Assembly (NCBI RefSeq): GCF_026151205.1
Contig: NC_087078.1
Coordinates: forward strand, 7,206,675 to 7,270,674
Direction of reading: 5' to 3'
Source: Bolinopsis microptera
Lineage: Eukaryota > Ctenophora > Tentaculata > Lobata > Bolinopsidae
Length of the DNA stretch: 64,000 bases
The translations under genes and the position numbers were made by a program. A model generated the notes under the pieces. That model was not told where the DNA came from. It did not search any database and worked only from the letters and a program-made list of their open reading frames with translations. Positions 30,130-60,062 of the stretch are shown here, piece after piece. Position 1 is the stretch's first letter. The number at the start of each line of letters is the position of its first letter.

Positions 30130-30306
30130 CTAGTCATCCGTCGGGGCGATGGTTCTGCAACAGGGAGTAAGATCAGTGCGATCCCATTTTCCCGTTTTGG
30201 TATCGCACGTTGCCTCAGTCCGATCAAACCTCATTATCACATATGTCGGATCATCATCGGCACAGGTAACTTTTAACTTGTAGTTGCTTGAGCCGGCCAA
30301 TTTCTC
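30130..30306 (-). CDS. Last exon: C-terminal part of the CCP/sushi domain and stop
   Basis: Phase 0 acceptor (CTCAG) joins to 30522-30627. Encodes SSNYKLKVTCADDD, ATCDTKTGKWDRTD, LTPCC and a short tail, then TAG at 30130-30132. The pattern Y-x-V-x-C, then C with G-x-W, then P-C is the sushi signature. No hydrophobic tail follows. Confidence 0.85.
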   Translation of the reverse strand, partial: EKLAGSSNYKLKVTCADDDPTYVIMRFDRTEATCDTKTGKWDRTDLTPCCRTIAPTDD

Positions 30307-33300: not shown

Positions 33301-36300
33301 AGGTTGCTACTAGGTGTCTTTATCTCATGTCCTGTAGATATAAATCGTTATTGGTGAGTTAAATTATTAAATTCCCTAATTTTTCGTAAAAATAGAAGAC
33401 CTATGCCCCAATTGAACAGAACCGTCCGGGTGCTCATTTAGGCTGTGGTGTAAGGAACCAAAGGTCCCCGCAAATGGTAACATTCCACCACTACATTTAG
33501 GACATCGATCTTTGTACTTGCGACCTCTTATTCGTCAACTTTGTATGAGACATAATTATATGTATTATGCATTAAAAGATGTGAAATTAAATGAAAAGCA
33601 AAGCGAACCTGTACTGTACATAGCTATGCACTGAAGGTTCCCTACAGCATCCTGGGAATGAGTGAAGGAGATTATAGACGTAATATTCGTTGCTGTCCGG
33701 ACTTTGTCCGCCAGAGTGAAACTTCACTATTTCGTGGTTCTTGTTGAGTGTCACTCCTTCCTCACTGATAATCTTACTGTCTAGTTGCCACCTTTATTAG
33801 GAATCAGGTTAGTAAGTTTCATACAAAGATGACTCGGTTTATTTGCTATTTTAACTGTTCAACAGTATGGTCAATGATTATGATATATTATATGATATTT
33901 AGGTTTATTTCTGGAATTTTAAGATTTGACATTGCTGAGTATATAAAAATGTATTTGTTAGACTTTTTCAGCCTCATTATCTGAAATAAATAAAACGTAC
34001 TGTATGTAGGAGAGATTAGAATATGTAAGACCGTTTAAGACTGTACAAGTAACTGTAGACGTAGTCCCAGCGGTCCCCCATACAGAGTTAGGAGTCTGCC
34101 TGCCACTCGTACTGACCCCCTCAACAGTCAACTTGTCATAGCTCTGCATTATTCCATCTGATGATAATCAACAAATTAAATTGCCACTTACTAATGTACC
34201 TAAATTTTTTGATGAAATATGATAAAGTATATGCTTATTTTAAATATTTTTAAACATTTTTAAATATTTTTAAATTTTAAATACTCAATAAAATGAACCA
34301 ACCACCGCTTTTTTTGGAGAATGAACAACCCCAGACGCCATCAGTAGAGTTATCAATGCTCAGTGTCAACGTTGACGTTAAACCTGTGTTCACTGGGTTC
34401 CTGAAATATTATTGATTAAAAAATATTGTATATTTCCCATTGAAATTATCAAAATAAAAAGTTACAAAAGTTAATTAGAATGTTTTCATTTTCCAATGTT
34501 GCCTTTTTAAATTTGATTACATTATCATCGTTTAATTGCATACTTGCAGGCACGAGTTTCACATTTCTTCCCGTCGATAGTCCAAGAGAAGACTCCTTCG
34601 CTGAAGACAGTAGAAAAATATCGACAGGTCAAAGTAAGATTCGATCCGGTAAAGACACGGCATCCTCCATTTGGTCGTAGAGATAAATCTATGGAAATTT
34701 GATGAGCTTGAAACAATTAAAAAATTATGATTTTTCAAACTGGACATGGAAAAAGCTATACATATCTACCCTTACTCATATAAAATATAGAAACTTCCCA
34801 TCCCTAATTTTTTCACTCTGATTAATATGCAGAAAGGCTACACTCATAATAATCAATGTCATTATACTCACTGTAGATTTGAGAGTTGACAGCAGCAGTC
34901 TGGTTTGTAACTTTATGTTCGTTAGAGGTGAAGAGGCACATATAGGTCTCGTTTAAGATGTTGAGCGTCCCAGGAATAGTTAAGGTGATAGTTTGAGAAC
35001 CGTTTGTGGTGATAAACCCACCATCAGTAACGGTATAGCCACCGTGTTTAGTTGTTACTGGAATACCGCTAGAAGTGGTCCATTCAATCGAGTCTAGTTC
35101 CTTCGTCAGACCAGTTACAGTACAAGATATCGTTGCTTCTGTACCGAAAAGTTGTGGCGTGTTGACCTTATTGACACCTGCAAATCAATGAACTTAGTTT
35201 ATACAAGAGGAAGCGTATTGTTCAAAATGTTAACCCATAACACGTTTACCAGGTTAATATAAATTTTTGGATCTTACCTAGTTCCAGAACTTTGGCTACA
35301 ACATTTAAGTCGGTAGATGCAGGAGAGTCTGTGTACTGAGACGAAGTTACCGAGCACTTGTATGTGAAGGATGGTTCAGCAGCAAAACCAGCTAGTTTGA
35401 CAGCCTTGATGGTGAGTTCTGCCAATTGGAGGCCGGTACCATCAACTCTTCCTTGGCTGACAACGTAGTTGGTGGTATCGGAGACAGAAACTGCAAAACC
35501 ATCAGGATCCTTCCAGACCACATTAACAGGGGTTCCACCTGCGTCTAATTCTCCGATAGTACAGGTGAACGTCTGATCAACAGCAGTAGTGACCAACTTG
35601 GGATCTGAACTGACCACTGAGAGAGATAAATGTTAATAACTTATTAAAGTATTAAGAAACTATTACAGAAACTAGTATACTTCATCATTAGATACCTTTA
35701 AACTTTTGAAAAACAATGGATATTTAGCTGAGGTTTATCGAATCGCTATTGCCGAGTACAGCTGCCTCCGGGTAGTGCTCCTTTATCTATTGATCTATTA
35801 AAATTGTCGAAATTTTATCGTCGTTTCGGGTTGTTTTTTAACAATTTTAGCAAATAATTTTTCCATCGATTTTTAATACAGTAAGCAAGAAAAGCAGTCG
35901 CTAAGCAGTAATAATATTGATATATAAGGGGTGAGGTCAAAGTTCAGTACACATAGTCATACGTTGGGGATTATTTCTCAGTCGCTGAATGCCCATTGCC
36001 CTATTCAAATATTGTTAATGCTATTGAAATAATTATTTTTGGTATACACTAAATCAAATAAAATCGATGTTAATTTGACCAAAACCCATAATCATGGGTA
36101 GAGTGTACCGCTGCCAGTGTCTCTCTTTTCCAAACAAAAGGAAATGATATAAATTTGAGGAACAGTCCGCTAATGCAAATTGATACCGAGAATGAAATCG
36201 GTCGCTCGCTTTTTCAAATCAATAAGCTTTATTACAATTCGTGAGCCGTGATCGAATGGAAAAAGCGAGCGACCGATTTCATTCTCGGTATCAATTTGCA

Positions 36301-39300
36301 TTAGCGGACTGTTCCTCAAATTTATATCATTTCCTTTTGTTTGGAAAAGAGAGACACTGGCAGCGGTACACTCTACCCATAATTATGGGTTTTGGTCAAA
36401 TATCATCTCTTTTTGATTATAATGTCAGGATAATTTACACAGCTAGTCGAAACTTCATTAACAAGAAGGTAATTTCGACGATTCCGAAATTCTGCCTTTG
36501 AAAACGTTTCCTTGTGTTTAGTTAGGTATATCTGTCGATAACCGACTGAATATGGCACTTTTTACTCATTCAAGTTGGCATTAAATTCATATATAATGCC
36601 ATTTAAATATCGTGGAAAGCAGAATATATTCGAAATCACGAATGAGCAAAATTCTCACCTTTCGCACGTGCAAACTTTGAGCGGACGTTGCGTGCGCATA
36701 CAATATTGAATCACCGTAAATTTTTGCATAGTGGTATTTAATATATAGTTTGATAAGCATGCAAAGTTTCAGAAGATTTCAAAAAGAACTTGGATCACAA
36801 CGGGACTCCAAAGTTGATAAAAATCGTGAAAATCAAAATTTTTAGTGATTTTAGCTATTTTAAATCAATTTGGGCGTGTCCCCACGTGTGCAACTTTTCG
36901 ATTTTTAACTTTAAAACTAGCCTATAACACAATTTACACCTTTAAGAAGCAAAATTGAGCTCCACAACCCAAGGGATAGCCCAACACCAGAGAATACTAA
37001 TTCACAACTTTTGTGTTTTTATAAAATTATTCTTCAAAAAAGCACTAACTTCAATAGCAAATATCTTTATGAAGGAGTAAGGTAGGAAACTTTTCCGGTA
37101 GATTTTTAGAATGCTTGAACAATTATCTAAGATGAAAATGTCCTCAGATTTTGAATAAAATTACTCTTTAATGGTGTAAAATCGATTTGAAAAGTTGTTA
37201 CTTTGTCAAAAGTCAAGTTTTAAAAACACTTAACTTGATGACGTCATCAAGTGATGATGATGATGATAAATTATTTTTCAATGTAAAGTAAAGTAAAGTA
37301 TAAACGATTATCTTTAAAACTTGTGGTTCGAAATGACTGTATCTTTTATACTATTGAATCTACGGACACTTAAATGTAGGCTACAATTGACTGCAAAAAG
37401 CGTCTATACATATATATCTTCACGACAATCTGTTGTAAAACAGGGGTTCCAGAAAACCCACTTCCCGATACTCCTGAAACATGAATTTTTTTACTGTCGA
37501 CTTGGACAAGGTCTAGACGCCCTGCAAAGTTTCAGATCTCTAACTCAATTTTAACATGGTTTTTAAGGCACCTGAATATGGCGATTTTGGGTTTTTTACC
37601 TAATTTCGTATAACATGCTGGCGCGTATTTTGCTCGCTTTTTCGAATCAATAAGCTTTATTACAATTCGTAAGCCGTGATCGAATGGAAAAATCGAGCGA
37701 CCGATTTCATTCTCGGTATCAATTTGCATTAGCGGACGGTTCCTTAAATTAATATCATTTCCTTTTGTTTGGAAAAGAGAGACACTGGCAGCGGTACACT
37801 ATACCCATGATTATGGGTTTTGGTCAAATATCATCTCTTTTTGATTATAATGTCAGGATAATTTACACAGTCGAAACTTCATTAACAAGGAGGTAATTTC
37901 GACGATTTCGAAATTCTGCCTTTGAAAACGTTTCCTTGTGTTTAGTTAGGTATATCTGTCGATAACCGACTGAATATGGCACATTTATTCATTCAAGTTT
38001 GCATTAAATTCATATATAATGCCATTTAAATATCGTGGAAAGCAGAATATATTCGAAATCACGAATGAGCAAAATTCTCACCTTTCGCACGTGCAAACTT
38101 TGAGCGGACGTTGCGTGCGCATACAATATTGAATCACCGTAAATTTTTGCATAGTGGTATTTAATATATAGTTTGATAAGCATGCAAAGTTTCAGAAGAT
38201 TTCAAAAAGAACTTGGATCACAACGGGACTCCAAAGTTGATAAAAATCGTGAAAATCAAAATTTTTAGTGATTTTAGCTATTTTAAATCAGTTTGGGCGT
38301 GTCCCCACGTGTGCAACTTTTCGATTTTTAACTTTAAAACTAGCCTATAACACAATTTACACCTTTAAGAAGCAAAATTGAGCTCCACAACCCAAGGGAT
38401 GGCCCAACACCAGAGAATACTAATTCACAACTTTTGTGTTTTTATAAAATTATTCTTCAAAAAAGCACTAACTTCAATAGCAAATATCTTTATGAAGGAG
38501 CAAGGTAGGAAACTATTCCGGTAGATTTTCGGAATGCTTGAACAATTATCTAAGGTAAAAATGCCCTCAGATTTTGAATAAAATTACTTCTTAATAGTGT
38601 AAAATCGATTTGAAAAGTTGTTACTTTGTCAAAAGTCAAGTTTTAAAAACACTTAACTTGATGACGTCATCAAGTGATGATGATGAAGTTAAATTATTTT
38701 TCAATACAATGTAAACTAAAGCTTAAACGATTATCTTCAAAACCTGTGGTTCGAGATGACTGTATCGTTTATACTTTCGAATCTACGGACACTTAAATGT
38801 AGGCTACAATTGACTGCAAAAAGCGTCTATACATACATATATATATATTATATATTTGACCAAAACCCATAATCATGGGTAGAGTGGACCGCTGCCAGTG
38901 TCTCTCTTTCCCAAACAAAAGGAAATGATATTAATTTGATTGACCGTTCTCAAATGCAAAATGATACCGAGAATGAAATCGGTCGCTCGCTTTTCCCATT
39001 CATTCACGGCTTACGAATTGTAATAAGTTTCGATTGATTAGGTACATCAATCAGATGCTGTAAAAATCTCTTTAGGTTGCGTTCGGGTCGATATCTAGTA
39101 TTTCGGGGTAAGGGTGGTAGTTATTACTTATTGAATTAGCTGAAGTTTATTGAATCTTTATTGCCGAGTACAGCTGCCTTTGGGTAGTTCTTCTTAATCT
39201 ATTACAATTGTAAATGAATGGGAAAAGCGAGCGACCGATTTCATTCTCGGTATCATTTTGCATTTGAGAACGGTCAATCAAATTAATATCATTTCCTTTT

Positions 39301-42300
39301 GTTTGGGAAAGAGAGACACTGGCAGCGGTCCACTCTACCCATGATTATGGGTTTTGGTCAAATATCATCTCTTTTTGATTATAATGTCAGGGTACTTTAT
39401 AAAGTCGAAATATAAACTGATGTCTTCATTAATAAGGAGGAAGTTTCAACGATTTCGAAATTTTTCCTTTAAAAACATTTCCTTGTGTTTAGGTAAACAT
39501 ATCGGTCGATCACTGACTGAATATGCCACTTAATACTCATTCAAGTTGGCATTAAATTCATTTATAATGACATTAAACTGTCGTGGCAAAGCAGAATTTG
39601 TTGGAAATCACGAATGAGCAAAATTCTCACCTTTCGCACGTGCAAACTTTGAGCGGACGTTGCGTGCGCATCCAATATTGAATCGCCGTAAATTTTTGCA
39701 TGTAATTGTTTTATATATAGTTTGATAAGCATGCAAAGTTTCAAAGTATTTCAAGAAGAACTGTAATCACAACGGCACTCTAAAGTTGACAGAAAATGAC
39801 GAAAACAGCAATTTTCAGTGATTTTAGCAATTTTCTATCAATTTGGGCGTGTCCCCACGTGTGCAACTTTTCGATTTTTTACTTTAAAACTAGCCTAATG
39901 CACAATTTATACCTATAGGAAGCAGAACTGAGCTCCACAACCCAAGGCATGGCCCAACACCAGAGAATACTAAATCGCAAAATTGACGTTTTTATAAAAT
40001 AATTCTTCAAAAAAGCACAAACTTCAATGACGAATATCTTTATGAAGGAGCAAGCTAAAAAAACTTTCCGGTAGATTATCAGAATGCTTGAACAATTATC
40101 TAAGGTGAAAATTTCCTCAGATTTTGAATACAATTACTTTTTAATGGTGTAAAATCATTTTTAAAAGTTATTACTTTGTCAAAAATCAAGTTTTAAAAAC
40201 GGTTAACTTGATGACGTCATCAAGGGGTGTTCATGACGTCAAATAATTTGTTTATACAATGTAAACTAAAGTGTGAACAATTATTCTCAAGACCTGTGGT
40301 CGGAAATGGCTGTATCTTTTATACTTTTGAATCTATGGACAATTAAATACAGGCTACAATTGACTGGCAAAGCGTCTATCCCTGATATATATATATATAT
40401 GTATATATCACGACAATCTGTCGTAAAACAGGGGTTCTAGAAAACCCACTTCCTGATGTTCCTGAAACCTGAAACTTTTTTTGCAGTCGATTTGGTCAAC
40501 GTCTAGACGCCCTAGAAAATTTCAGATCTCTAACTCGATTTTAACATGGTTTTTAAGGCACCTGAATATGGCGATTTTGGGTTTTTTACCGAATTTCGTA
40601 TAACAGTGCTGGCGAGTATTTTATGCAAATTTCTTAAAAATCTCAACATAACTATTTTTTATTCCTGTCATCTTTGACATCAAATTAGAATGTTTTGAAC
40701 TAAAAATAAATCTGCTGAACGACTTCCGATGAGTCTTAATGCCTGAAAAACTCCTGCCGGAGGCGGCGGCCTTCGGCCGCCGCCTCCGGCCGGAGTGCAC
40801 GCTTCGCGTGCACGAAAGAGGCTTGTAACGTGTACCAAAGGGGGTATAATAGTAAAGGGGGTACATAGTATACCCACAATAAATGCACCGGTCGTGCTTG
40901 CCAGCACTGTGATCTTCACGACAATCTGTTGTAAAACAGGAGTTCCAGAAAACCCACTTCCCGATACTCCTGAAACATGAAATTTTTTTTACAGTCGATT
41001 TGGACAAGGTCTAGACGCCCTGCAAAGTTTCATATCTCTAACTTAATTTTAACATGGTTTTTAAGGCACCTGAATATGGCGATTTTGGGTTTTTTACCTA
41101 ATTTCGTATAACATGCTGGCGCGTATTTTGCGCAAATTTCTTAAAAACCTCCACATAACTATTTCTTATTCCTGTCATCTTTAACATTGAATTAGAATGT
41201 TTTAAACTTAAATATGCCTGCTGAACTACTTTCGATGAGTCTTAATGCCTGGAAAACAATAAAGGGGATATACTAGTATAGGGGGTAAATAGTATTGTGA
41301 ATATAAGGGCGACGGTAATGCTTGCCAGCATTGTGATTTTCGGAATGAACCATAATTTTCGCGTTTTTAGATATTTTTAATAATTGGATCGATTCAATTT
41401 GTGATGCGTTGTGCTTGGCTTGTTGAAATAATATCCTGGACAATAAGTAAGAGTTCGTAGTGGACTACTTTTCGGAAAAATGAATGTTCTTCCAAATAAA
41501 GCCCTGTAAGGTAAAATTATTTATTCTTACTACCAGCCTGTTTCACTTCTTTGTTTTCTGATTTAACGTCGGAAGTAAGTTATCGCAAAGCATTTTGAAG
41601 TTTTGTTGAAAGATATAAATTCAAACTGAAATTATCAAAACTGTAGTCCAATATGGATGTAAACATTCTAACATTTAAAGAACATACCATAAACGTTTAG
41701 ATTGACGGTGGTATCCGAATGGCTGGAATTAGGTAAAGAACCAGAAGTCACTCTGCAAGTGTACGCAGTATCTTCATTCACAAGAGTCCCGTCTACAGCA
41801 AGATTTGATGTTTGTGTCCCTCCAGAATGGCTTCCTTGGACAGAGGTAAACTTTTCAGCTGTAACTGGTCCTGTAATAGTTCGCCAGGTCACTGTTGCTG
41901 TTTTTGTCAATCCAGTGATAACACAGGATATTGTTGTATCTGAGCCTTTCTTCACTTCTTTGTTTACTGATTCAACGTCTGAAGCAAGTTATCGTTAAGT
42001 ATTTTGAAGTTTGACTGTAAGTATAAATTCAATCTGAAATTATCAAAACTGTAGTCCAATATTGATGTAAACATTCTAACATTTAAAGAACATACCATAA
42101 ACGTTAAGATTGACGGTGGTATCCGAATGGCTGGAATCAGGTAAAGAACCAGAAGTCACTCTGCAAGTGTAGGCAGTATCTTCATTCACAAGAGTCCCGT
42201 CTACAGCAAGAGTTGATGTTTGTGTCCCTCCAGAATGGCTTCCTTGGACAGAGGTGAACTTTTCAGCTGTAACTGGTCCTGTAGTAGTTCGCCAGGTCAC

Positions 42301-45300
42301 TGTTGCTGTTTTTGTCAATCCAGTGATAACACAGGATATTGTTGTATCTGAGCCCTTCTTCACTTCTTTGTTTACTGATTCAACGTCTGAAGCAAGTTAT
42401 CGTTAAGTATTTTGAAGTTTGACTGTAAGTATAAATTCAATCTGAAATTATCAAAACTGTAGTCCAATATTGATGTAAACATTCTAACATTTAAAGAACA
42501 TACCATAAACGTTAAGATTGACGGTGGTATCCGAATGGCTGGAATTAGGTAAAGAACCAGAAGTCACTCTGCAAGTGTACGCAGTATCTTCATTCACAAG
42601 AGTCCCGTCTACAGCAAGATTTGATGTTTGTGTCCCTCCAGAATGGCTTCCTTGGACAGAGGTAAACTTTTCAGCTGTAACTGGTCCTGTAATAGTTCGC
42701 CAGGTCACTGTTGCTGTTTTTGTCAATCCAGTGATAACACAGGATATTGTTGTATCTGAGCCTTTCTTCACTTCTTTGTTTACTGATTCAACGTCTGAAG
42801 CAAGTTATCGTTAAGTATTTTGAAGTTTGACTGTAAGTATAAATTCAATCTGAAATTATCAAAACTGTAGTGCAATATTGATGTAAACAATTAAAGAACA
42901 TACCATAAACGTTAAGATTGACGGTGGTATCCGAATGGCTGGAATCAGGTAAAGAACCAGAAGTCACTCTGCAAGTGTAGGCAGTATCTTCATTCACAAG
43001 AGTCCCGTCTACAGCAAGAGTTGATGTTTGTGTCCCTCCAGAATGGCTTCCTTGGACAGAGGTGAACTTTTCAGCGGTAACTGGTCCTGTAGTAGTTCGC
43101 CAGGTCACTTTTGCTGTTTTTGTCAATCCAGTGATAACACAGGATATTGTTGTATCTGAGCCTTTCTTCACTTCTTTGTTTACTGATTTAACGTCTGAAG
43201 CAAGTTATCGTTAAGTATTTTGAAGTTTGACTGTAAGTATAAATTCAATCTGAAATTATCAAAACTGTAGTGCAATATTGATGTAAACAATTAAAGAACA
43301 TACCATAAACGTTAAGATTGACGGTGGTGTCCGAATGGCTGGAATCAGGTAAAGAACCAGAAGTCACTCTGCAAGTATAGGCAGTATCTTCATTCACAAG
43401 AGTCCCGTCTACAGCAAGAGTTGATGTTTGTGTCCCTCCAGAATGGCTTCCTTGGACAGAGGTGAACTTTTCAGCGGTAACTGGTCCTGTAGTAGTTCGC
43501 CAGGTCACTTTTGCTGTTTTTGTCAATCCAGTGAGAACACAGGATATTGTTGTATCTGAGCCTTTCTTCACTTCTTTGTTTACTGATTCAACGTCTGAAG
43601 CAAGTTATCGTTAAGTATTTTGAAGTTTGACTGTAAGTATAAATTCAATCTGAAATTATCAAAACTGTAGTGCAATATTGATGTAAACATTTAAAGAACA
43701 TACCATAAACGTTAAGATTGACAATGGTATCCGAATGGCTGGAATCAGGTAAAGAACCAGAAGTCACTCTGCAAGTGTACGCAGTATCTTCATTCACAAG
43801 AGTCCCGTCTACAGCAAGAGTTGATGTTTGTGTCCCTCCAGAATGGCTTCCTTGGACAGAGGTGAACTTTTCAGCTGTAACTGGTCCTGTAGTAGTTCGC
43901 CAGGTCACTGTTGCTGTTTTTGTCAATCCAGTGATAACACAGGATATTGTTGTATCTGAGCCTTTCTTCACTTCTTTGTTTACTGATTCAACGTCTGAAG
44001 CAAGTTATCGTTAAGTATTTTGAAGTTTGACTGTAAGTATAAATTCAATCTGAAATTATCAAAACTGTAGTGCAATATTGATGTAAACATTTAAAGAACA
44101 TACCATAAACGTTAAGATTGACAATGGTATCCGAATGGCTGGAATCAGGTAAAGAACCAGAAGTCACTCTGCAAGTGTAGGCAGTATCTTCATTCACAAG
44201 AGTCCCGTCTACAGCAAGAGTTGATGTTTGTGTCCCTCCAGAATGGCTTCCTTGGACAGAGGTGAACTTTTCAGCTGTAACTGGTCCTGTAGTAGTTCGC
44301 CAGGTCACTGTTGCTGTTTTTGTCAATCCAGTGATAACACAGGATATTGTTGTATCTGAGCCTTTCTTCACTTCTTTGTTTACTGATTCAACGTCTGAAG
44401 CAAGTTATCGTTAAGTATTTTGAAGTTTGACTGTAAGTATAAATTCAATCTGAAATTATCAAAACTGTAGTGCAGTATTGATGTAAACATTTAAAGAACA
44501 TACCATAAACGTTAAGATTGACGGTGGTATCCGAATGGCTGGAATCAGGTAAAGAACCAGAAGTCACTCTGCAAGTGTACGCAGTATCTTCATTCACAAG
44601 AGTCCCGTCTACAGCAAGAGTTGATGTTTGTGTCCCTCCAGAATGGCTTCCTTGGACAGGGGTGAACTTTTCAGCTGGAACTGGTCCTGTACTAGTTCTC
44701 CAGGTCACTGTTGCTGTTTCTGTCAATCCAGTGATAACACAGGATATTGTTGTATCTGAGCCTTTCTTCACTTCTTTGTTTACTGATTCAACGTCTGAAG
44801 TAAGTTATCGTTAAGTATTTTGAAGTTTGACTGTAAGTATAAATTCAATCTGAAATTATCAAAACTGTAGTGCAATATTGATGTAAACATTTAAAGAACA
44901 TACCATAAACGTTAAGATTGACGGTGGTATCCGAGTGGCTCGAATAAGATAAAGAACCAGAAGTCACTCTGCAAGTGTAGGCAGTATCTTCATTCACAAG
45001 TGTTCCGTATACAGCAAGAGTTGATGTTTGTGTTCCTCCAGAATGGCTTCCTTGGACAGGGTTGAATTTTTCAGCTGGAACTGGTCCTGTACTTGTTCGC
45101 CAGGTCACTGTTGCTGTTTCTCTCAAACCAGTGATAACACAGGATATTGTTGTATCTGAGCCTTTCTTCACTTCTTTGTTTACTGATTTGACGCGAACTT
45201 CTGAAGTAAGTTATCGTAAATTATTTGAAGTTTGGTTGTAAGACATAAATTCGAACTAAAATATAAAAACTGCAGTACAAGATTATTGTTAGAGTTTAAA

Positions 45301-48016
45301 CTTTTAAAGAACATAACGTCAATTTATAAATAATTTTACCGCCGTAGTTATTCTCTGCTTAACGATTCTATCTTATAGTTAGTTACCCAAGTATAAAACT
45401 ATATTATACAAAAAAATTTACGGCAAAGTTCGAAATTGCCCTGTTATAAGGAAAGGGAAAGGAAGCAGTTCTAACGAGCTCTTCTCAAATACAAGGATAT
45501 ATCTTGTGAACTTGGCTAGTATATATGAAACATTTGATATGGAGTTGTAGAGGGAGTTATGTGCCTCGCCGGGCTAAAGTAGTGGATGACCTTGCTGTAC
45601 GGCAAGTTAAACAAGGATCTGAAACTACTAGGTTCCGTACAGACTCAACTCTGCACCCGTGTCAATATGTTCATTATATGCAAGCCTCTTGATTTATAAT
45701 ATGGTCCGTATGATTTGACTGCTAATCTTTTAAGTATAGCTTAACAAACCCGGTTTATGGAACCGTAATTGCATGGAAAACCGTACACAAACAGTCACAA
45801 CAAGTGCCTCCAATTCTTTACGGTTTACCTTCATCATATCAAGATATTACAATGGTGTAACCTTATCGGACATACCTTATCGGACCTTATTTGGACGGAC
45901 ATTACTTGAACGCTGGAGGCCCTAGCGTTCATCTTAATGTCCGTCCAAGTTAAAGTCCGTTGAAATGTTTTCAAAAATTTTTTCATTTCGAACTTTTTGT
46001 CCAGAATATGACAACTTTGAGAACTTTATTGTGCCGTAAGTTAACGATGGAAAGGTTCTCCTTGGTCTGCCGGAGGCACAGAAAACTCTACTAGTATATG
46101 ATATTTTCAAGGGTCACTTGGCGGAAAAAAGTCAACGAAATTATGGCACTCAACAACATAGTTCATGAACTAGTCCCCGCCAACATGACAAACTTGTTCC
46201 AGCCTCTAGATATTACGGTAAATCGTGTTTCCAAGGACATTGTCCGACGTTGTTATAGTTCATATTACTCGGGGGCGGTCATGAAACAGTGCTAGGAAAG
46301 CTCCACGTGATGTTAAGGTTAACCTAAGTTGTCTAAGATAAAACCACTTCACGCCGAATGGCTTGTAACAGTTAACACTGAAATGCAGGACCGGGGTAGT
46401 TTGATAAAAAAGGTTTCCATAAAGCTAGAAATCACTGATGCTTTAAGCATGGACTATTTCATGCACGAAAACCCATTTGATGAAGATGATATGTGATATT
46501 AGACACTGATCATGTACACATATTTTAACATTTTTACTGCTCAATGACTGCTTTTCTTACTTACTGTATAAAAAATGGATTTAAAAATCATTTGCTGAAA
46601 TTTAAAAAACGTCAAAAAAATTGAAAAAATTCAGATTTTTGATGGTTTTGAATGCCTTCGAGCGTTCATATTAATATCCGTTCATAATTATGTCCGTTCA
46701 GGTAACTGTCACGGACATTTTCACGGACCAAATTTTTCACGGACATAATTATTCACGCTCATGACCGCCCAAAAATGTCCAAAAATTTGTGAACATTTTT
46801 TATTTGGTGATTTTTTTAATAAGTGTTTTACTCTTTTTTTTTTTGAGTTTTTCTGAACTGTAGAATGTGACTGAGGAGTTATTATATTTGTCCTAGTATA
46901 CTAATAAACTAATATAGTAATCGGCTACACACTTATCTACGTATAATGCATATGTAGGGACACACACACATTAAAATTAATAGAAATAATCACCGGACTT
47001 TATTATTCACGGGCCTTAATGCCACCGACATTATTTTCACGGACTTAATTATTCACGCTAAAGTAATGTCCGTGATAGTTATGACCGATAAGGTATGCAA
47101 ATAATACCATTATCAATTATGACGTCATTAAATTAAGGTTTTCAAGAATGAAACGTGATCTGTGAAGTTTATACCTAAAAGGGTGCATACAAGGTATACA
47201 TCATTTCCATGAGAGCAGTCACTGACTTCAAAATCATAACTGCAGGTGCCAAAATCTTTGTCGCTGTGACAGTCCAAGTTATCTAGCGTTATCCGGTAAT
47301 TGTTCTGCATGGTATGAAGGTATCCACTTCTCCAACTATCAGAGCCATAATATCCCATCCGTCTACAGACTGCATCAGCTGAATAGTCGTCAAACCGATT
47401 GTCTGTGTCACATACCGTCCCTCCGTTATAGAGAACCAAATAACTGACACCGTTCTTAGCCTGTACCGTGTTACCGCCAGTGTCTACCAGTCGGAACTGT
47501 CCTTCTGAAAATGTAAACCAATTAAAATCTGTATGTTAATTAAGACCCAATGTAATTTTCTTTGCGTTAAAATAATTATGAATTACCGTCGAAAAGATCG
47601 TGGTTTGTGATTACCTGGGAACCTCACTACCTCAAGCTTAAATGTTTATAGGCAAAGCGTTAAAATCTGGCTCAATAATCCTCGGTCCAATTCAGACAGA
47701 AGATCCAACTTGACAAATTTTGAAAATATAAACGAACTTTTTCGACACTTTCAACTTCATGGTCTTATCACTTATTCTACGGCTTCGTATGCACCCCTTC
47801 TACCATCTCGGCTACAGGGCCGTCAGACGTAGTACGGGCGTTGTGGAGGGGTTGCTCATTTGATCAATGAGATGAGGTCGGGCAACGTCTGACAAATCAC
47901 TTATTGTCACTTAATCTCACTCATGATTTCTTGTTCTAAGAAAACAAATAAACTACTCAGTACTCACCAACGCAGGTCACCAGAAGAACAATAATACCGA
48001 GTATTATCTTCACCAT
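30130..48016 (-). CDS. Large secreted SRCR - multi-immunoglobulin - CCP protein
   Basis: A minus-strand gene reconstructed exon by exon. Order: signal peptide (47968-48016), SRCR (47175-47504), nine tandem Ig exons (41688-45200), Ig (35278-35616), Ig (34872-35177), Ig split over 34544-34688 and 34306-34400, Ig split over 34001-34157 and 33609-33791, uncertain modules (32650-33331), Ig-like split over 32060-32176 and 31726-31941, an unassigned module (31076-31255, 30772-30883, start of 30522-30627), and CCP (end of 30522-30627, 30130-30306). Every module begins and ends in phase 1, the hallmark of exon-shuffled extracellular proteins; about 1,800 residues in all. No membrane segment before the stop, so it is predicted to be secreted. 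Such mixtures occur in invertebrate recognition and adhesion proteins; ligand unknown. One single-base break in 33609-33791. Confidence 0.8.
30522..30627 (-). CDS. Exon entering the CCP domain
   Basis: Phase 2 start, phase 0 end. Its end encodes CRPLTTPPNTVL, the first Cys and Pro-Asn-Thr of the sushi domain that is completed in 30130-30306. The first part (ITFETGLHYKTSKVKLAVKR) belongs to the preceding module. Confidence 0.8.
30772..30883 (-). CDS. Exon of an unassigned extracellular module
   Basis: Phase 1 start, phase 2 end, consistent with neighbours on both sides. Contains FSCDDGSYYFK. Together with 31076-31255 it makes a beta-rich module that I cannot name. Confidence 0.65.
31076..31255 (-). 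CDS. Exon of an unassigned extracellular module
   Basis: Open frame reading YKARIEMSGFEVTTDLITLK onward to a GTAAGT donor. The acceptor chosen (TTCCAG before TATACAAG) gives the required phase 1; the neighbouring CAG 14 bases upstream would hit a stop. No diagnostic motif. Confidence 0.6.
31726..32176 (-). CDS. Ig-like domain split over two exons (32060-32176 and 31726-31941)
   Basis: First exon carries the B-C strand region ending SSVTVTWQQKG with the core Trp; second carries the D-F region (NANLIIDKIKESDI, FFLVITKINV). Phases 1/1 and 1/1. The expected F-strand Cys is not evident, so this is a diverged Ig-like fold. Confidence 0.6.
32650..33331 (-). CDS. Candidate exons of uncertain structure (33331 leftward, 32884-32975, 32650-32777)
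   Basis: 32884-32975 and 32650-32777 join cleanly in phase 2 (KESIKFF then SSGSTPATVET, WYNYTINSGL). An exon ending at 33331 starts in phase 1 and is open to 33054, but its donor is unclear: GTTAGT and GTAGAA sites are candidates. In another phase 32884-32975 would read NSGKYNCKW, which resembles an Ig F strand, so alternative joining cannot be excluded. Confidence 0.4.
33609..33791 (-). CDS. Second half of an Ig domain, with a one-base frame break
   Basis: Starts with the core Trp (QWQLDSKI) in one frame and ends with SFTHSQDAVGNLQCIAMYS, a typical F strand, in another. Its length is 183, where 182 would keep phase 1 at both ends: one extra G in the GGCGGAC stretch near 33715-33725 explains it. 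Acceptor AAAG and donor G/GTTCGC are weak-to-fair. Confidence 0.65.
34001..34157 (-). CDS. First half of an Ig domain
   Basis: Phase 1 start, phase 2 end at a GTACGT donor. Encodes QSYDKLTVEGVSTSGR, then TSTVTCTVLNGLTYSN with the B-strand Cys. Completed by 33609-33791. Confidence 0.75.
34306..34688 (-). CDS. Ig domain split over two exons (34544-34688 and 34306-34400)
   Basis: First exon: GSNLTLTCRYFST and FSWTIDGKKC (B-strand Cys, C-strand Trp), ending phase 2. Second: TSTLTLSIDNSTDGVWGCSF (E-F strands with Cys), ending phase 1 at a weak GTGGTT donor. Extra cysteines (GGCR, KKCETRACK) suggest additional disulfides. Confidence 0.78.
34872..35177 (-). CDS. Ig domain, single exon
   Basis: 306 bases, phase 1-1. 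ATISCTVTGL, SIEWTTSSGI and LNETYMCLFTSN give the Cys-Trp-Cys core. Related to the array units (VTGLTK, SG.P) but clearly diverged; several N-x-S/T sequons. Confidence 0.85.
35278..35616 (-). CDS. Ig domain, single exon
   Basis: 339 bases, phase 1-1, CTCAG acceptor and GTAAGA donor. Core QTFTCTIGEL, NVVWKDPDG, FTYKCSVTSS. It is the next coding exon after the Ig array, across a 6.1-kb intron filled with repeats. Confidence 0.87.
37233..37252. promoter_or_regulatory. 20-bp palindrome with a CRE/ATF-type TGACGTCA core
   Basis: ACTTGATGACGTCATCAAGT reads the same on both strands and contains the full consensus cAMP-response element. It recurs at 38656-38675 and, at 18 bases, at 40207-40224, always at the same place in the repeat. 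Function is inferred from the motif only. Confidence 0.55.
40757..40813. repeat. Two adjacent perfect GC hairpins with TTC loops
   Basis: 40757-40771/40775-40789 is a 15-base perfect stem with loop TTC; 40795-40802/40806-40813 is an 8-base stem GTGCACGC with the same loop. They interrupt the third repeat's 3' flank and are far more GC-rich than their surroundings. Confidence 0.9.
41525..41575 (-). pseudogene. Remnant of a tenth Ig-array unit
   Basis: Minus strand reads the same intron end and exon start as the other units (ACGTTAAATCAGAAAACAAAG, coding VKSENKEVK), but the acceptor CAG has become CCG and similarity stops after about 45 exon bases, followed by a stop. It sits at the 3' end of the array where the repeat block begins. 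Confidence 0.75.
41688..41978 (-). CDS. Last (3'-most) intact Ig exon of the array
   Basis: Encodes a domain identical to that of 42504-42794, with TWRTITGPV, TSNLAVDG and LPNSSHSD. Its GTATGTTC donor is intact. The next downstream unit is the dead remnant at 41525-41575, so it must splice across 6 kb to 35616. Confidence 0.87.
44904..45200 (-). CDS. First (5'-most) Ig exon of the array
   Basis: The most diverged unit: it starts EVRVKSVNKEVK, six bases longer than the rest, and has AVYGTLVNED and LSYSSHSD where others have AVDG and LPDSSHSD. Its introns and frame are intact. It joins the SRCR exon in phase 1. Confidence 0.88.
45550..45660 (+). repeat. Diverged third copy of the 29.4-kb short element
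   Basis: Shares 'gttatgtgcct', 'gctgtacggcaagttaaaca' and 'ggttccgtacagac' with 29645-29760. Intronic. Confidence 0.5.
45871..47098. mobile_element. pogo/Tigger-like DNA transposon relic
   Basis: Ends are short inverted repeats (CATACCTTATCGG at 45871; its complement ending at 47098). Subterminal zones are rich in ACGGACATTATTCACG-type repeats (46660-46760 and 46990-47075). Inside is a decayed DDE transposase at 46100-46496. It lies in the intron between the SRCR exon and the Ig array of the host gene. Confidence 0.75.
46100..46496 (+). pseudogene. Decayed DDE transposase C-terminal part (pogo/Tigger type)
   Basis: Fragments in changing frames: DIFKGHLAEK, then VNEIMALNNIVHELVPANMT, NLFQPLDITVNRVSKDIVRR, then after stops IKPLHAEWLVTVNTEMQDRG and ALSMDYFMHENPFDEDDM, ending TGA at 46496. 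The VPANxTNxxQPLDxxVN block and the D in DIFKGH are typical of pogo-like DDE domains. A frameshift and in-frame stops make it dead. Confidence 0.8.
47175..47504 (-). CDS. SRCR domain exon
   Basis: 330 bases, phase 1-1, TTCAG acceptor and GTATAA donor. EGQFRLVDTGGNTV, LVLYNGGTVCDTDNRFDD, ADAVCRRMGYYGSD, ITLDNLDCHSDKDFGTCSYD, SDCSHGNDVYLVC match a whole scavenger receptor cysteine-rich domain, with at least six cysteines in the expected order. In the family this is a ligand-binding extracellular fold. Follows the signal peptide directly. Confidence 0.92.
47968..48016 (-). CDS. Signal-peptide exon, start of the SRCR-Ig-CCP protein
   Basis: ATG at 48016 encodes MVKIILGIIVLLVTCVG, a short basic start and a hydrophobic core, then a GTGAGT donor in phase 1. 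This is the classic first exon of a secreted or surface protein. Confidence 0.88.
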
Positions 48017-55674: not shown

Positions 55675-56805
55675 CCATCTTCTGTCACCTTCTACTGCTG
55701 TCTTCTGTCACCTTCTGCTGCTGCCTTCTGTCACCTTCTGCTGCTGCCTTCTGTCACCTTCTGCTGCTGCCTTCTGTCACCTTCTGCTGCTGCCTTCTGT
55801 CACCTTCTGCTGCTTCTTTCTGTCACCTTCTGCTGCTGCCTTCTGTCACCTTCTGTTGCTGCCTTCTGTCACCTTCTGCTGCTTCTTTCTGTCACCTTCT
55901 GCTGCTGCCTTCTGCCACCTTCTGCTGCTCAGCTGCTGCCTTCTGTCACCTTCTGCTGCTGCCTTCTGTCACCTTTTGTTGCTTCTTTCTGTCACCTTCT
56001 GCTGCTGCCTTCTGCCACCTTCTGCTGCTGCCTTCTGTCACCTTCTGCTGCTGCCTTCTGTCACCTTCTGCTGCTTCTTTCTGTCACCTTCTGCTGCCGC
56101 CTTCTGTCACCTTCTGCTGCTTCTTTCTGTCACCTTCTGTTGCTGCCTTCTGTCACCTTCTGTTGCTGCCTTCTGTCACCTTTTGCTGCTTCTTTCTGTC
56201 ACCTTCTACTGCTGCCTTCTGTCACCTTCTGTTGCTGCCTTCTGTCACCTTCTGCTGCTTCTTTCTGTCACCTTCTGCTGCTGCCTTCTGTCACCTTCTG
56301 TTGCTGCCTTCTGTCACCTTCTGCTGCTTCTTTCTGTCACCTTCTGCTGCTGCCTTCTGCCACCTTCTGCTGCTCAGCTGCTGCCTTCTGTCACCATCTG
56401 CTGCTGCCTTCTGTCACCTTCTGTTGCTTCTTTCTGTCACCTTCTGCTGCTGCCTTCTGCCACCTTCTGCTGCTGCCTTCTGTCACCTTCTGCTGCTGCC
56501 TTCTGTCACCTTCTGCTGCTGCCTTCTGTTACCTTCTGCTGCTGCGTTCTGTCACCTTCTGCTGCTGCCTTCTGCCACCTTCTGCTGCTGACTTCTGTCA
56601 CCTTATGCTGCCACTGGCTGCCGCCTTCTGCCACCTTCTACTGCCACTGGCTGCCGCCTTCTGCTGCTGCCTTCTGTCACCTTCTGCTGCTGATTTATTT
56701 CACCTTCTGCTGCTGCCTTCTGTCACCTTTTGCTGCTGTCTTCTGTCACGTGCTGCTGCTGACTTCTGTCACCTTCTGCTGCTGCCTTTTGCCATATTCT
56801 ACTGC
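55675..56805 (+). repeat. 23-bp minisatellite, open in all three forward frames
   Basis: About 48 units of TTCTGTCACCTTCTGCTGCTGCC with variants (CTTCTTT, CTGTTGC, GCCACC). Because 23 is not a multiple of three, each forward frame passes through the same three phases and encodes the same 23-residue hydrophobic, Cys/Leu/Ser-rich repeat without stops for 319-407 codons. A shorter related block follows at about 56947-57040. No start context, splice signal or composition argues for a real protein. Confidence 0.93.
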
Positions 56806-57164: not shown

Positions 57165-58403
57165 TAAAAATTTTACGATATCGCAGTCCGGTCAACCAAG
57201 GTTTTTGATATTTATCCAGTCCTAACCGACACTTGGAAAGTAGAAAAGTGCCGTCTCTTGCAGTCATATCAAACATCTCAGGATGCTTTGATCAGAGCGG
57301 TGCAACCCCAGGTGCGGTCTGGGAGAGTTTGGAAGGCAGATGCTCAGCTTCACGAAGCTGAAAGAGACTTGGTGTGTGAGTCAGTGCGAGGTATGGTGCA
57401 ACCTCTTAGTAGAGCGGGAATTGGTTTCGGTGATTGGAAGAAGCCCTGGGAGAAGATGTCAGAAAAGGAGCAGCAGAGGGAGGTGTTGGATAGGGTTAAG
57501 GAGAACATCAGGAAGGAAAGAGAGGTGCAGTTGGGTACGTTGGAGATGCAGTCCAGGTGGGGTAATTGGAGAGAGTTGGTGACAAGGACTGACATGAGCT
57601 GGCACACGCTCTTCAAGTATGGGGACTCATTAATCGGTTTTCTGCTTAGTGCTGTGTATGGCACGCTTGTTACACCAGCTTTAGCATCCAAGTGGAGCGA
57701 GGATGAGGATGGGATGTGCAAGCTGTGTGGTGACAAGTTGGGAACTGTGCCGCATATCCTGGCTGGTTGTCCTGTGGCACTAAGTCAAGGGAGATACCGA
57801 TGGCGCCACGATAAGGTGCTTAAACAAATAGCAGACCAGGTTAAATTCCATTGTGAGCGGAGAGTCAACAAGAGGAAGAGTTCTTGTGTCACTCGGAAAG
57901 CCATTGAGTTTGTCCCAGCAGGAGGGAGGTTTAAGGAGGTGAAGAGGTCGAAAGTCAGTGAGTTTGGGATTCTGAGTGGGGCCACTGATTGGATAGTATT
58001 AGCAGACCTGGATAAGCAGCTGAAATTCCCGTCGGATATAGCAACGACCAGATTAAGACCAGATTTGGTTCTTTTCTCGAAAGCTTCCAAGAGAGTAATC
58101 TGGTGGGAGCTTACAGTACCGTCGGAAGAGAGAATAGCTGCATCACATGAGCTGAAGCTTGATCGGTATAACAGTCTACAAGCGGAAATACAAGCTAATG
58201 GGTGGTCATGTTTCAGCTTTGCTGTTGAGGTTGGTGCTAGAGGTGTGGTCGCAGCAAGTTTGGAGTGTGCATCAAGGAAGATCGGTCTGACTGGGAGAGC
58301 CCTCAAGAAGTTGGTCAGAGATTGTGGGAAGGATGCAGCCCATTGTTCAAGATGGATTTATCTGCTGTCTAGGAAAAGAGAGTGGGAGATGAGAGCTGTT
58401 TGA
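57165..58403 (+). CDS. C-terminal part of a non-LTR retrotransposon with restriction-like endonuclease (R2/NeSL type), 5'-truncated
   Basis: The frame is open upstream of 57258 (RSTKVFDIYPVLTDTW) to about 57165 and ends at 58403. Counting from 57258: a C154-x2-C157...H166...C171 knuckle (CKLCGDK, PHILAGCP), then a PD-(D/E)XK-type nuclease with RPD at 267-269 and E284 in WWELTVPSEE, followed by KLDRYNSL and the typical tail to the stop. In such elements this nuclease cuts the target site for reverse transcription. The RT domain is missing. The intact frame and a long 3' tail suggest a fairly young insertion directly after the minisatellite. Confidence 0.88.
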
Positions 58404-59456
58404 GCTTTATGACTTCACCTAACAGCCAGAGGTACCATAAGCTAACTCGTCGTAAATCGCGAGCTCTAGCAGGTATCCTCGGGTGATTGTCAGATCAGAT
58501 GGTGGTCCAAGAGAGACTGCTGGGGCACCTGACAGAAAACCGTATCGCAATGAAAGCCCCGAAACGGTGTCAGGTTTGTGACTGAAGATTCTGATCAAGC
58601 TCAGGGTTGAGTCTACACAGTGTCGCCACTTGCCGATGCCATTTGATGCGAGAAGACACTGATGTAAGTGGGAAGTTATGTCTAAGAAACAGCGTGTGGT
58701 TCGGGTGCCGGTTGAACGCATGTAAAAGGGAGGGTATATCCGTATTTCGCTGCTAGTGATGCAGTCCTTGGCCCGGTAGCTAAGGCTTCCCCGTTTCTCG
58801 CTCATTTGTGCTCCGATGGGCTTGTGACCTCTGCGGGGGTCAAGTGCAGGATGAGGGACATGGCCGACCAGGAGAATGTTGTTTTTGGGAGATAGAGTAG
58901 GGTTGATTTGGTGTTGTGCCTTCGCAGTTTAACTGTATCTTTACTTTAAGGTATGGTTGGCTCCTATAAAACTGTAGGTATGTATGTGCTGACTGCTGAG
59001 ACTCTTGGTTTAAATTCCTAGTTAAATAAACCGTGTGACTGTAAAGCTTAAAGATGAATATCCACTATAAATACCCAATGGAAACTTTTGTAATTATAAA
59101 GGAAAGTATAATTATTTCAACGGGAGCTTAGTCGACATATGGCTCGCAATTAATTTGGCAAACTTTCACCTGCAAAAGGGCGTGATTACATTTTATCATT
59201 CGAAGTATACGTTAGAGGTTAAAATAATGATACATAATTTATATACTTCAAGGATAATGTGAAAATATTTAGGTCTGATCGTATGATATTTAACAGCATA
59301 ACGCCATAGGGGTCGTTTAAATTCTTGTTTTGAAATAAGATCTTAACAATCACCATTACTCAGTCACGGATAAAAGCATCAGTTGTGTTTTTTGGGAAGA
59401 ATCATGTTATCGTATTTTTTTGTCGGATAATATAAACAAAATCTAAGTAAGCGTCG
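58404..59456 (+). other. Probable 3' untranslated region of the LINE, then non-coding DNA
   Basis: 58404 to about 58950 is GC-richer and continuous with the LINE; it reads as a 3' UTR. The remainder is AT-rich with nothing recognisable. Confidence 0.5.
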
Positions 59457-60062
59457 GCTATTAGGTGGCTGTTAGAGTGCTGTTAGAGGGCTATTAGGTG
59501 GCTGTTAGAGTGCTGTTAGAGGGCTATTAGGTAGCTGTTAGAGAGCTGTGGTCAGAGGGCTGTTAGAGGGCTGTTAGAGGGCTGTTAGAGGGCTATTAGG
59601 TGGCTGTTAGAATGCTGTTAGAGGGCTATTAGGTGGCTGTTAGAGGGCTGTGATCAGAGGGCTGTTAGAGGGCTGTTAGAGGGCTATTAGGTGGCTGTTA
59701 GAGTGCTGTTAGAGGGCTATTAGGTGGCTGTTAGAGTGCTGTTAGAGGGCTATTAGGTGGCTGTTAGAGGGCTGTGATCAGAGGGCTGTTAGAGGGCTGT
59801 TAGAGGGCTATTAGGTGGCTGTTAGAGGGCTATTAGGTGGCTGTTAGAGGGCTGTGATCAGAGGGCTGTTAGAGGGCTGTTAGAGGGCTATTAGGTGGAT
59901 GTTATAGGGCTGTTAGAGGGCTATTAGGTGGATGTAAGAGTGGTGTTAGAGGGCTATTAGGTGGCTGTTAGAGGGCTGTGATCAGAGTGCTGTTAGAGTG
60001 CTGTTAGAGTGCTGTTAGAGGGCTATTAGGTAGCTGTTAGAGTGCTGTCAGAGGGCTGTTAC
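59457..60062 (+). repeat. Minisatellite of GGCTGTTAGAG/GGCTATTAGGT units
   Basis: About 55 copies of an 11-base unit arranged in higher-order blocks; a marker variant GGCTGTGATCAGAG recurs about every 90-130 bases. G-rich on the plus strand. It ends about 90 bases before the first exon of the right-edge gene. Confidence 0.95.

Follow-up and report, generated by a model that had tools for sequence, protein, structure and literature searches.

One idea about multi-Ig proteins is that adjoining immunoglobulin (Ig) domains usually differ from one another, thereby avoiding joint misfolding. A 64-kb stretch of the genome of Bolinopsis microptera (contig NC_087078.1; hereafter the window, whose positions serve as coordinates), a member of the ctenophores, the phylum often placed sister to the other animals, carries a tandem array of nine Ig exons, coded on the minus strand, whose adjoining domains are 94–100% identical in protein (eight neighbour pairs). 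The locus raises the question of whether such likeness is kept by selection on the protein or by copying of the DNA, and what a protein so built would do. Comparison with related arrays across the assembly supports homogenisation of whole units, exon plus intron, by exchange and not by protein selection alone, and the domain protein is also constrained from array to array.

Nine intact Ig exons in one array

The tandem array is genuine and well past chance expectation: Tandem Repeats Finder (TRF) reported a repeat at 41535–45284 with a period of 400, 9.3 copies, 96% matches and a score of 6596. An earlier note on this DNA had described nine Ig exons in one array, with a 400/408-base period and with exons and introns alike, and the exon read-out, reading frames, splice sites and TRF result agree with that description. 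Positions 45200–41688 hold nine stop-free exons, every one of phase 1-1, eight of which are 291 bp long and the 5′-most 297 bp; the units follow each other at steps of 400 bp (six) or 408 bp (two), and acceptor TTCAG and donor GTATGT are found at all nine. Six of the eight internal introns are 109 bp long, and the other two are 117 bp long owing to an 8-bp insertion. The identical-domain pairs named in the earlier note, 1/3 (41976/42792) and 6/7 (43992/44392) in its numbering, are also identical in our translations. Beyond the ninth exon, 41535–41690 matches the window array at 78–91% and contains a truncated tenth unit (Table 1). With CCG in place of CAG at its acceptor, this unit cannot end the gene in the normal way, and a terminal exon reading VKSENKEVKQAGSKNK was ruled out on this ground.

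One array unit generated Pfam matches to I-set (E 3.3e-6, 27.5 bits, cut-off 23.7) and C1-set (E 1.7e-5, 25.5 bits, cut-off 21), and C18, W31 and C74 of the domain are invariant across the aligned units. A PDB sequence search with an array unit gave 42 distinct matches at E ≤ 0.01 (best E 1.4e-4), all Ig-type by chain name, including CD276, antibody chains, NCAM, Dscam and hemolin. A structure model of one unit has its strands in Ig order, at a mean predicted local distance difference test (pLDDT) score of 48.3, too weak for a fold search. Judged from these matches, the array units belong to the Ig domain class (I-set/C1-set).

Exons and introns are homogenised within arrays

The window array is one of a family. 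In the assembly (264.65 Mb, 232 contigs), matches at megabase positions lie only on contigs C1 to C13, and on every other contig among the hits the matches lie below position 0.1 Mb. A 413-bp unit used as DNA query gave at least 248 matches, a lower bound in that the 150 matches listed omit an array on C2 that was recovered by a protein search with the unit (best 150 of 820 candidates scored). By our own count, the matches listed form about 20 clusters, on C2, C4, C7, C11 and C13. At E ≤ 1e-20, 150 matches lay in array stretches, from which 136 full-length, gap-free exons of 11 arrays were kept; the 14 dropped are partial or gapped, several of them in array C4b and one a C13 exon running into a stop, and the absence of stops from the 136 exons is a figure obtained after this filter.

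A synonymous/nonsynonymous comparison of units, which the earlier note had proposed as a check, was run on 97 exons of eight arrays, including the stop-containing C13 exon, and on up to eight introns per array, with gap columns left out. In the window array, synonymous divergence (pS) is 0.065, nonsynonymous divergence (pN) 0.023 and intron divergence 0.012; the 5′ edge unit accounts for much of the pS, and the 28 pairs without it give about 0.042 (pS) and 0.017 (pN). Within seven of the eight arrays, pS is 0.007–0.065 and intron divergence 0.005–0.077. Between arrays, 22 of the 28 pairs show pS of 0.19–0.30, intron divergence of 0.20–0.28 (a third or more of the columns being gaps in intron comparisons that involve C13) and pN of 0.04–0.09, whereas the remaining six, which pair closely related arrays (C2, C4c and C7 in one group and the three of C13 in another), have pS of 0.014–0.100 and intron divergence of 0.007–0.172. 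As introns are alike together with exons, exchange, and not protein selection alone, explains the likeness within arrays. The window array thus shows the pattern of concerted evolution, exons and introns being alike within and diverged between arrays.

Nearest relatives point the same way. Across the 11 arrays, 123 of the 136 exons have their nearest relative within their own array (tie, 4; other array, 9), as do 91 of 115 introns (tie, 16; other array, 8). In an exon tree with supports from 0 to 1 overall, most arrays hold together while units at the edges depart from theirs: the window's first unit groups with C4c (0.83), its second with the second C2 unit (0.74), and the 5′ edge unit of C4a with a C4b unit (0.94), and C11a is intermixed with C11b and C13b with C13c. 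The window array and six of the seven others compared are each homogenised privately, C4b being the exception.

The distance between units rises with their separation in five of seven arrays (p ≤ 0.0175; window array, Mantel r 0.39, p 0.0175), in a test that left out four small arrays and treated C4a as a single array despite a gap. Mean base differences in the window array are 21.1 for the 5′ edge unit (45200–44904), 9.4 for the 3′ edge unit and 8.4 for inner units, and its intron variants are common to neighbouring units. Neighbour similarity and a divergent 5′ edge unit are marks that unequal exchange is predicted to leave. The earlier note had called the 5′-most unit the oldest; it is the most divergent, and greater age would be one reading of that divergence.

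Two further candidates for exchange were set aside. Ten of 55 pairs of two-letter sites show all four combinations, as exchange points within exons would produce, and all ten involve site 4 or 213; they are explicable by two repeated mutations and are not used as support, and a count of 26 of 78, which included three-letter sites, is likewise unused. For exon-only exchange between C2 and C7 (pS 0.064, introns 0.121), there are too few sites to make a claim.

That repeats collapsed or expanded in assembly, so that part of the array's length is artefactual, is in our judgement very improbable. Other loci of the family do give grounds for suspicion: a C13 array is palindromic about a point near 1.003 Mb, and 1,743 Ns stand in the stretch of C4b. 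The window itself is free of N, all nine exons are distinct at the DNA level, neighbours share intron variants, and among the candidates scored in the assembly neither the SRCR exon nor the upstream flank had another complete copy.

The domain protein is constrained between arrays

In comparisons of the window array with C4a, C4b and the three C13 arrays, pN is 0.055–0.071 and pS 0.215–0.272. Fixed differences between the window array and C4a comprise 0 nonsynonymous and 10 synonymous changes, against 62 nonsynonymous and 47 synonymous segregating ones (Fisher p 0.0004). The same test was applied to 45 pairs of 10 arrays (C13b omitted), 43 of which have fixed differences; 11 of these 43 gave p < 0.05, all short of fixed nonsynonymous change and never in the opposite direction. 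The tests are not independent, because one array enters several pairs and the units are kin to one another. Introns and synonymous sites that are alike within arrays and diverged between them, together with low pN, argue for homogenisation within arrays and protein constraint between them, and the domain protein is, on this reading of the substitutions, constrained across arrays. Of the earlier proposal that units are copied whole rather than conserved by protein selection alone, the part concerning exchange within the array stands (introns 0.012, Mantel r 0.39), and strong protein selection, visible between arrays, has to be added to it.

The earlier note had suggested a recognition molecule of variable length, with a copy number likely polymorphic between individuals. 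These figures bear on that proposal in the form in which diversifying selection acts and the number and variants of the units would serve to mark individuals or to bind a range of ligands. The repeat structure allows copy-number change, nonsynonymous variants are many within arrays (217 nonsynonymous, 176 synonymous) and exceed synonymous ones per site in C13a (pN 0.040, pS 0.028). In Mnemiopsis leidyi, SRCR genes, some with Ig domains, are discussed as immune receptors, and 12 of them altered expression on a second Vibrio exposure, according to the available text of PMC11797021. Even so, all 11 significant array pairs are short of fixed nonsynonymous change; nonsynonymous variation is densest over 22 residues starting at residue 34, without reaching significance (p 0.088), and variable residues that are not significantly clustered do not favour a diversified binding site; and separate loci encode nearly the same protein, window Ig exon 2 being identical in protein to a common unit of the C2 array on a different chromosome. 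Taken together, this p value, the constraint between arrays and the occurrence of one protein on more than one chromosome point to a constant rod more than to a diversified binding site, and we regard diversified recognition as improbable. The 217 nonsynonymous and 176 synonymous segregating variants nevertheless suggest that single copies are only weakly constrained or have become so recently.

A predicted signal peptide and one SRCR domain precede the array

Upstream of the array, a simple scan (ATG, hydrophobic stretch and phase-1 GT) gave 48016–47968 as the sole signal-peptide candidate within 45.3–50.5 kb. The exon that follows it (47504–47175) matches Pfam PF00530 (E 5.1e-10, 40 bits, cut-off 26.1), by which it is identified as an SRCR superfamily member. 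Signal peptide, SRCR and nine Ig exons, 11 in all, join in phase into 1,001 stop-free codons and make a coherent predicted 5′ gene model, in which nine Ig domains follow a signal peptide and a single SRCR domain. Among 14 array starts examined, those of the window array, C4a, C4b and C13c have a signal-peptide-like exon upstream. C4a and C4b share a different such exon, MKxLSLIGLIVILSLTFLPTHC, 5.5 and 3.6 kb upstream.

Table 1. Coordinates of features at and around the Ig array in the window
Feature	Position	Strand	Remarks
Candidate first coding exon, signal peptide MVKIILGIIVLLVTCV	47968..48016	-	phase-1 donor
SRCR exon, 330 bp, phase 1-1	47175..47504	-	Pfam SRCR; acceptor TTCAG; phase fits
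Ig exon 1 (gene order)	44904..45200	-	5′ edge unit, 297 bp, most divergent
Ig exon 2	44504..44794	-	291 bp; protein as a common unit of C2 array
Ig exon 3	44104..44394	-	291 bp
Ig exon 4	43704..43994	-	protein same as Ig exon 3
Ig exon 5	43304..43594	-	exon read-out
Ig exon 6	42904..43194	-	exon read-out
Ig exon 7	42504..42794	-	exon read-out
Ig exon 8	42096..42386	-	both flanking introns with 8-bp insertion (117 bp)
Ig exon 9	41688..41978	-	protein same as Ig exon 7
Truncated tenth unit	41535..41581	-	first part of exon kept; acceptor CCG for CAG; stop soon after
Repeat-rich stretch	36073..41341	.	direct and inverted repeats, partly dispersed in genome; between array and next Ig-like exons
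Ig-like exon, other type, phase 1-1	35278..35616	-	splice-compatible with array; 64% and 60% to exons 5′ of C2 array
Ig-like exon, phase 1-1	34872..35177	-	distant kin of array unit, 34–39% to window units
Possible last exon with stop codon	30130..30313	-	5′ limit approximate; link to array only candidate

At the 3′ end, the gene may run on through exons 35616 to 30130. The exon at 35616–35278 gave no Pfam match at E 0.1; that at 35177–34872 shares about 50% identity with two of the exons lying 5′ of C2 and matched Pfam Ig_3 at 0.0078, under the cut-off. Beyond 34872, more exon-like frames continue down to the stop near 30130, and nine downstream frames compared with Pfam (E ≤ 0.1) gave no match in seven cases and matches under the cut-off in two. 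The possible last exon had no Pfam match, and a membrane segment was not seen within it. No membrane anchor was found for the gene, for which no systematic search was made. The earlier note had taken the product to be secreted: the signal-peptide candidate and the lack of a membrane exon among those found make this plausible, and the 3′ end is unsettled in that exons 35616–30130 may belong to the gene.

Two candidates in the repeat-rich stretch were rejected, a transmembrane-like exon with a phase-1 acceptor (40860–40988), which is a dispersed repeat (the best 150 of 1,667 candidates all match, across the large contigs), and a signal-peptide-like exon (41331–41273), which falls within that stretch. 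The repeats of 36073–41341 are nested, and one piece reads as a hydrophobic segment on the minus strand and is recurrent through the genome. In the intron before the array, 45453–45700 matches dozens of sites at 92–100% identity, spread over every one of the thirteen large contigs, with copies partly in tandem at a step of 317 bp (e.g. C10:2377193-2377757), and is a young dispersed repeat or satellite.

The gene model also bears on a structural role, in which the array would be an extracellular-matrix rod (mesoglea or adhesive) whose length arises from repeat exchange with almost no effect on fitness. Constraint between arrays and near-identical adjoining domains would suit such a rod, as would the finding of like arrays with different 5′ exons, C4a and C4b having another signal peptide in common. 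An SRCR head, however, suggests ligand binding, and the frames compared with Pfam showed no domain specific to the matrix, so that we consider a matrix rod unlikely.

Related clusters and other features

The other Ig exon type, as at 35616–35278, also forms clusters in the genome (best 150 of 315 candidates scored), at C9:10552284-10562979, C7:9298084-9306235 and C1:16753623-16760589, with steps of about 950–1040 bp and several units equal in score. SRCR exons are clustered too (best 150 of 296 candidates scored). Ig and SRCR arrays occur as mirror-image palindromes at C13:999936-1005675 and C2:17838497-17845560, which are either real inverted duplications or fold-back assembly faults.

Elsewhere in the window, frames 57168–58403 (+) and 27793–27359 (-) resemble by eye the C-terminal zinc-binding part of retroelement reverse transcriptases, the former without a Pfam match at E 0.001. 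TRF also found two large minisatellites, at 55679–56788 (23/46-bp CTTCTGTCACC... units) and 59456–60061 (11/33-bp GGCTGTTAGAG units).

Discussion

We favour, at a probability of roughly 0.6, the reading that the window holds a gene for an extracellular protein, with an SRCR domain and a rod of nine Ig domains, homogenised by exchange and constrained in sequence, in which the rod serves as a polyvalent or spacer part. Such a protein would be made of a signal peptide, one SRCR domain and nine near-identical Ig domains, one phase 1-1 exon each. Exon plus short intron would act as a 400-bp direct repeat that permits misaligned exchange, and unequal crossing-over, possibly with conversion, would add, remove and homogenise units inside each array, edge units tending to escape. 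Because gain or loss of any unit preserves the frame, length variants would be tolerated; purifying selection would maintain the Ig domain sequence, and rod length would determine how far the SRCR head extends or how avidly it binds, on the pattern of human DMBT1. In our assessment a polyvalent or spacer part is the likeliest role, more so than a set of diversified binding sites, and avidity or reach ranks first, with structural rod and diversified recognition after it. The sequence shows the exon structure, the homogenisation, the constraint between arrays and the spread of the family through the genome, whereas how the exchange proceeds, secretion, length polymorphism and function are inferred.

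Several results weigh against this account. Homogenisation is slight in C4b (within-array pS 0.185, introns 0.184), and neighbour similarity is not significant in C13a (p 0.21) and C4b (p 0.27). No significant excess of constraint between arrays was seen in 32 of the 43 array pairs, some C13c–C11 pairs fix more nonsynonymous than synonymous changes (22 to 16 against C11b), and nonsynonymous variants outnumber synonymous ones among those segregating within arrays. Ten of the 14 array starts have no signal-peptide candidate in the stretch examined, and the evidence base is the DNA of one haplotype.

Among known systems, human DMBT1 (SALSA, gp340) and LPA kringle IV-2 (KIV-2) come closest. DMBT1 is an SRCR-containing extracellular pattern-recognition protein with tandem coding units inside the gene, in which copy-number variation gives 7 to 21 SRCR domains and affects bacterial binding (available text of PMC9038570). 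There, SRCR is the repeated unit, whereas the window gene has a single SRCR domain followed by repeated Ig domains; the likeness noted is one of architecture, copy-number variation being a property of DMBT1 and the window array being known from one haplotype. Human LPA KIV-2 is likewise a coding tandem repeat within a gene, with 1–40 units per allele (available text of PMC11462820), but has a kringle domain, a 5.6-kb unit and one gene, in contrast to the 400-bp one-exon unit and many loci of the window family. Arthropod Dscam has tandem duplicated exons encoding parts of or whole Ig domains (available text of PMC3236188); these are mutually exclusive alternatives, whereas the window units are near-identical and frame-compatible and could all be included, phase 1-1 exons permitting any subset in a transcript. 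SRCR proteins with Ig domains are mentioned for Mnemiopsis leidyi, of the same phylum, and homogenised Ig-exon arrays are not described in the available text (PMC11797021). In the literature on ctenophore and sponge SRCR, Ig, allorecognition and exon arrays, mostly open-access and at the level of titles and abstract openings, no description of ctenophore Ig-exon arrays of this kind was found, which is weak evidence of novelty.

A wider and distinctly speculative extension is that Ig (and SRCR) exons form a dispersed system of frame-safe cassettes in many privately homogenised arrays, and that individuals differ in the lengths of an entire set of Ig rods, secreted or at the surface, which would give the ctenophore a combinatorial, length-based means of identity or defence.

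The family allows two sources of likeness among repeats to be told apart: exchange of DNA, which operates inside arrays, and selection on the protein, which shows across them. With adjoining Ig domains as alike as those of the window array, it is also a natural case that bears on the idea that neighbouring domains diverge to avoid misfolding. Should array lengths vary between individuals, invertebrates would have in this family a counterpart to DMBT1 that repeats Ig instead of SRCR domains and does so at many loci at once.

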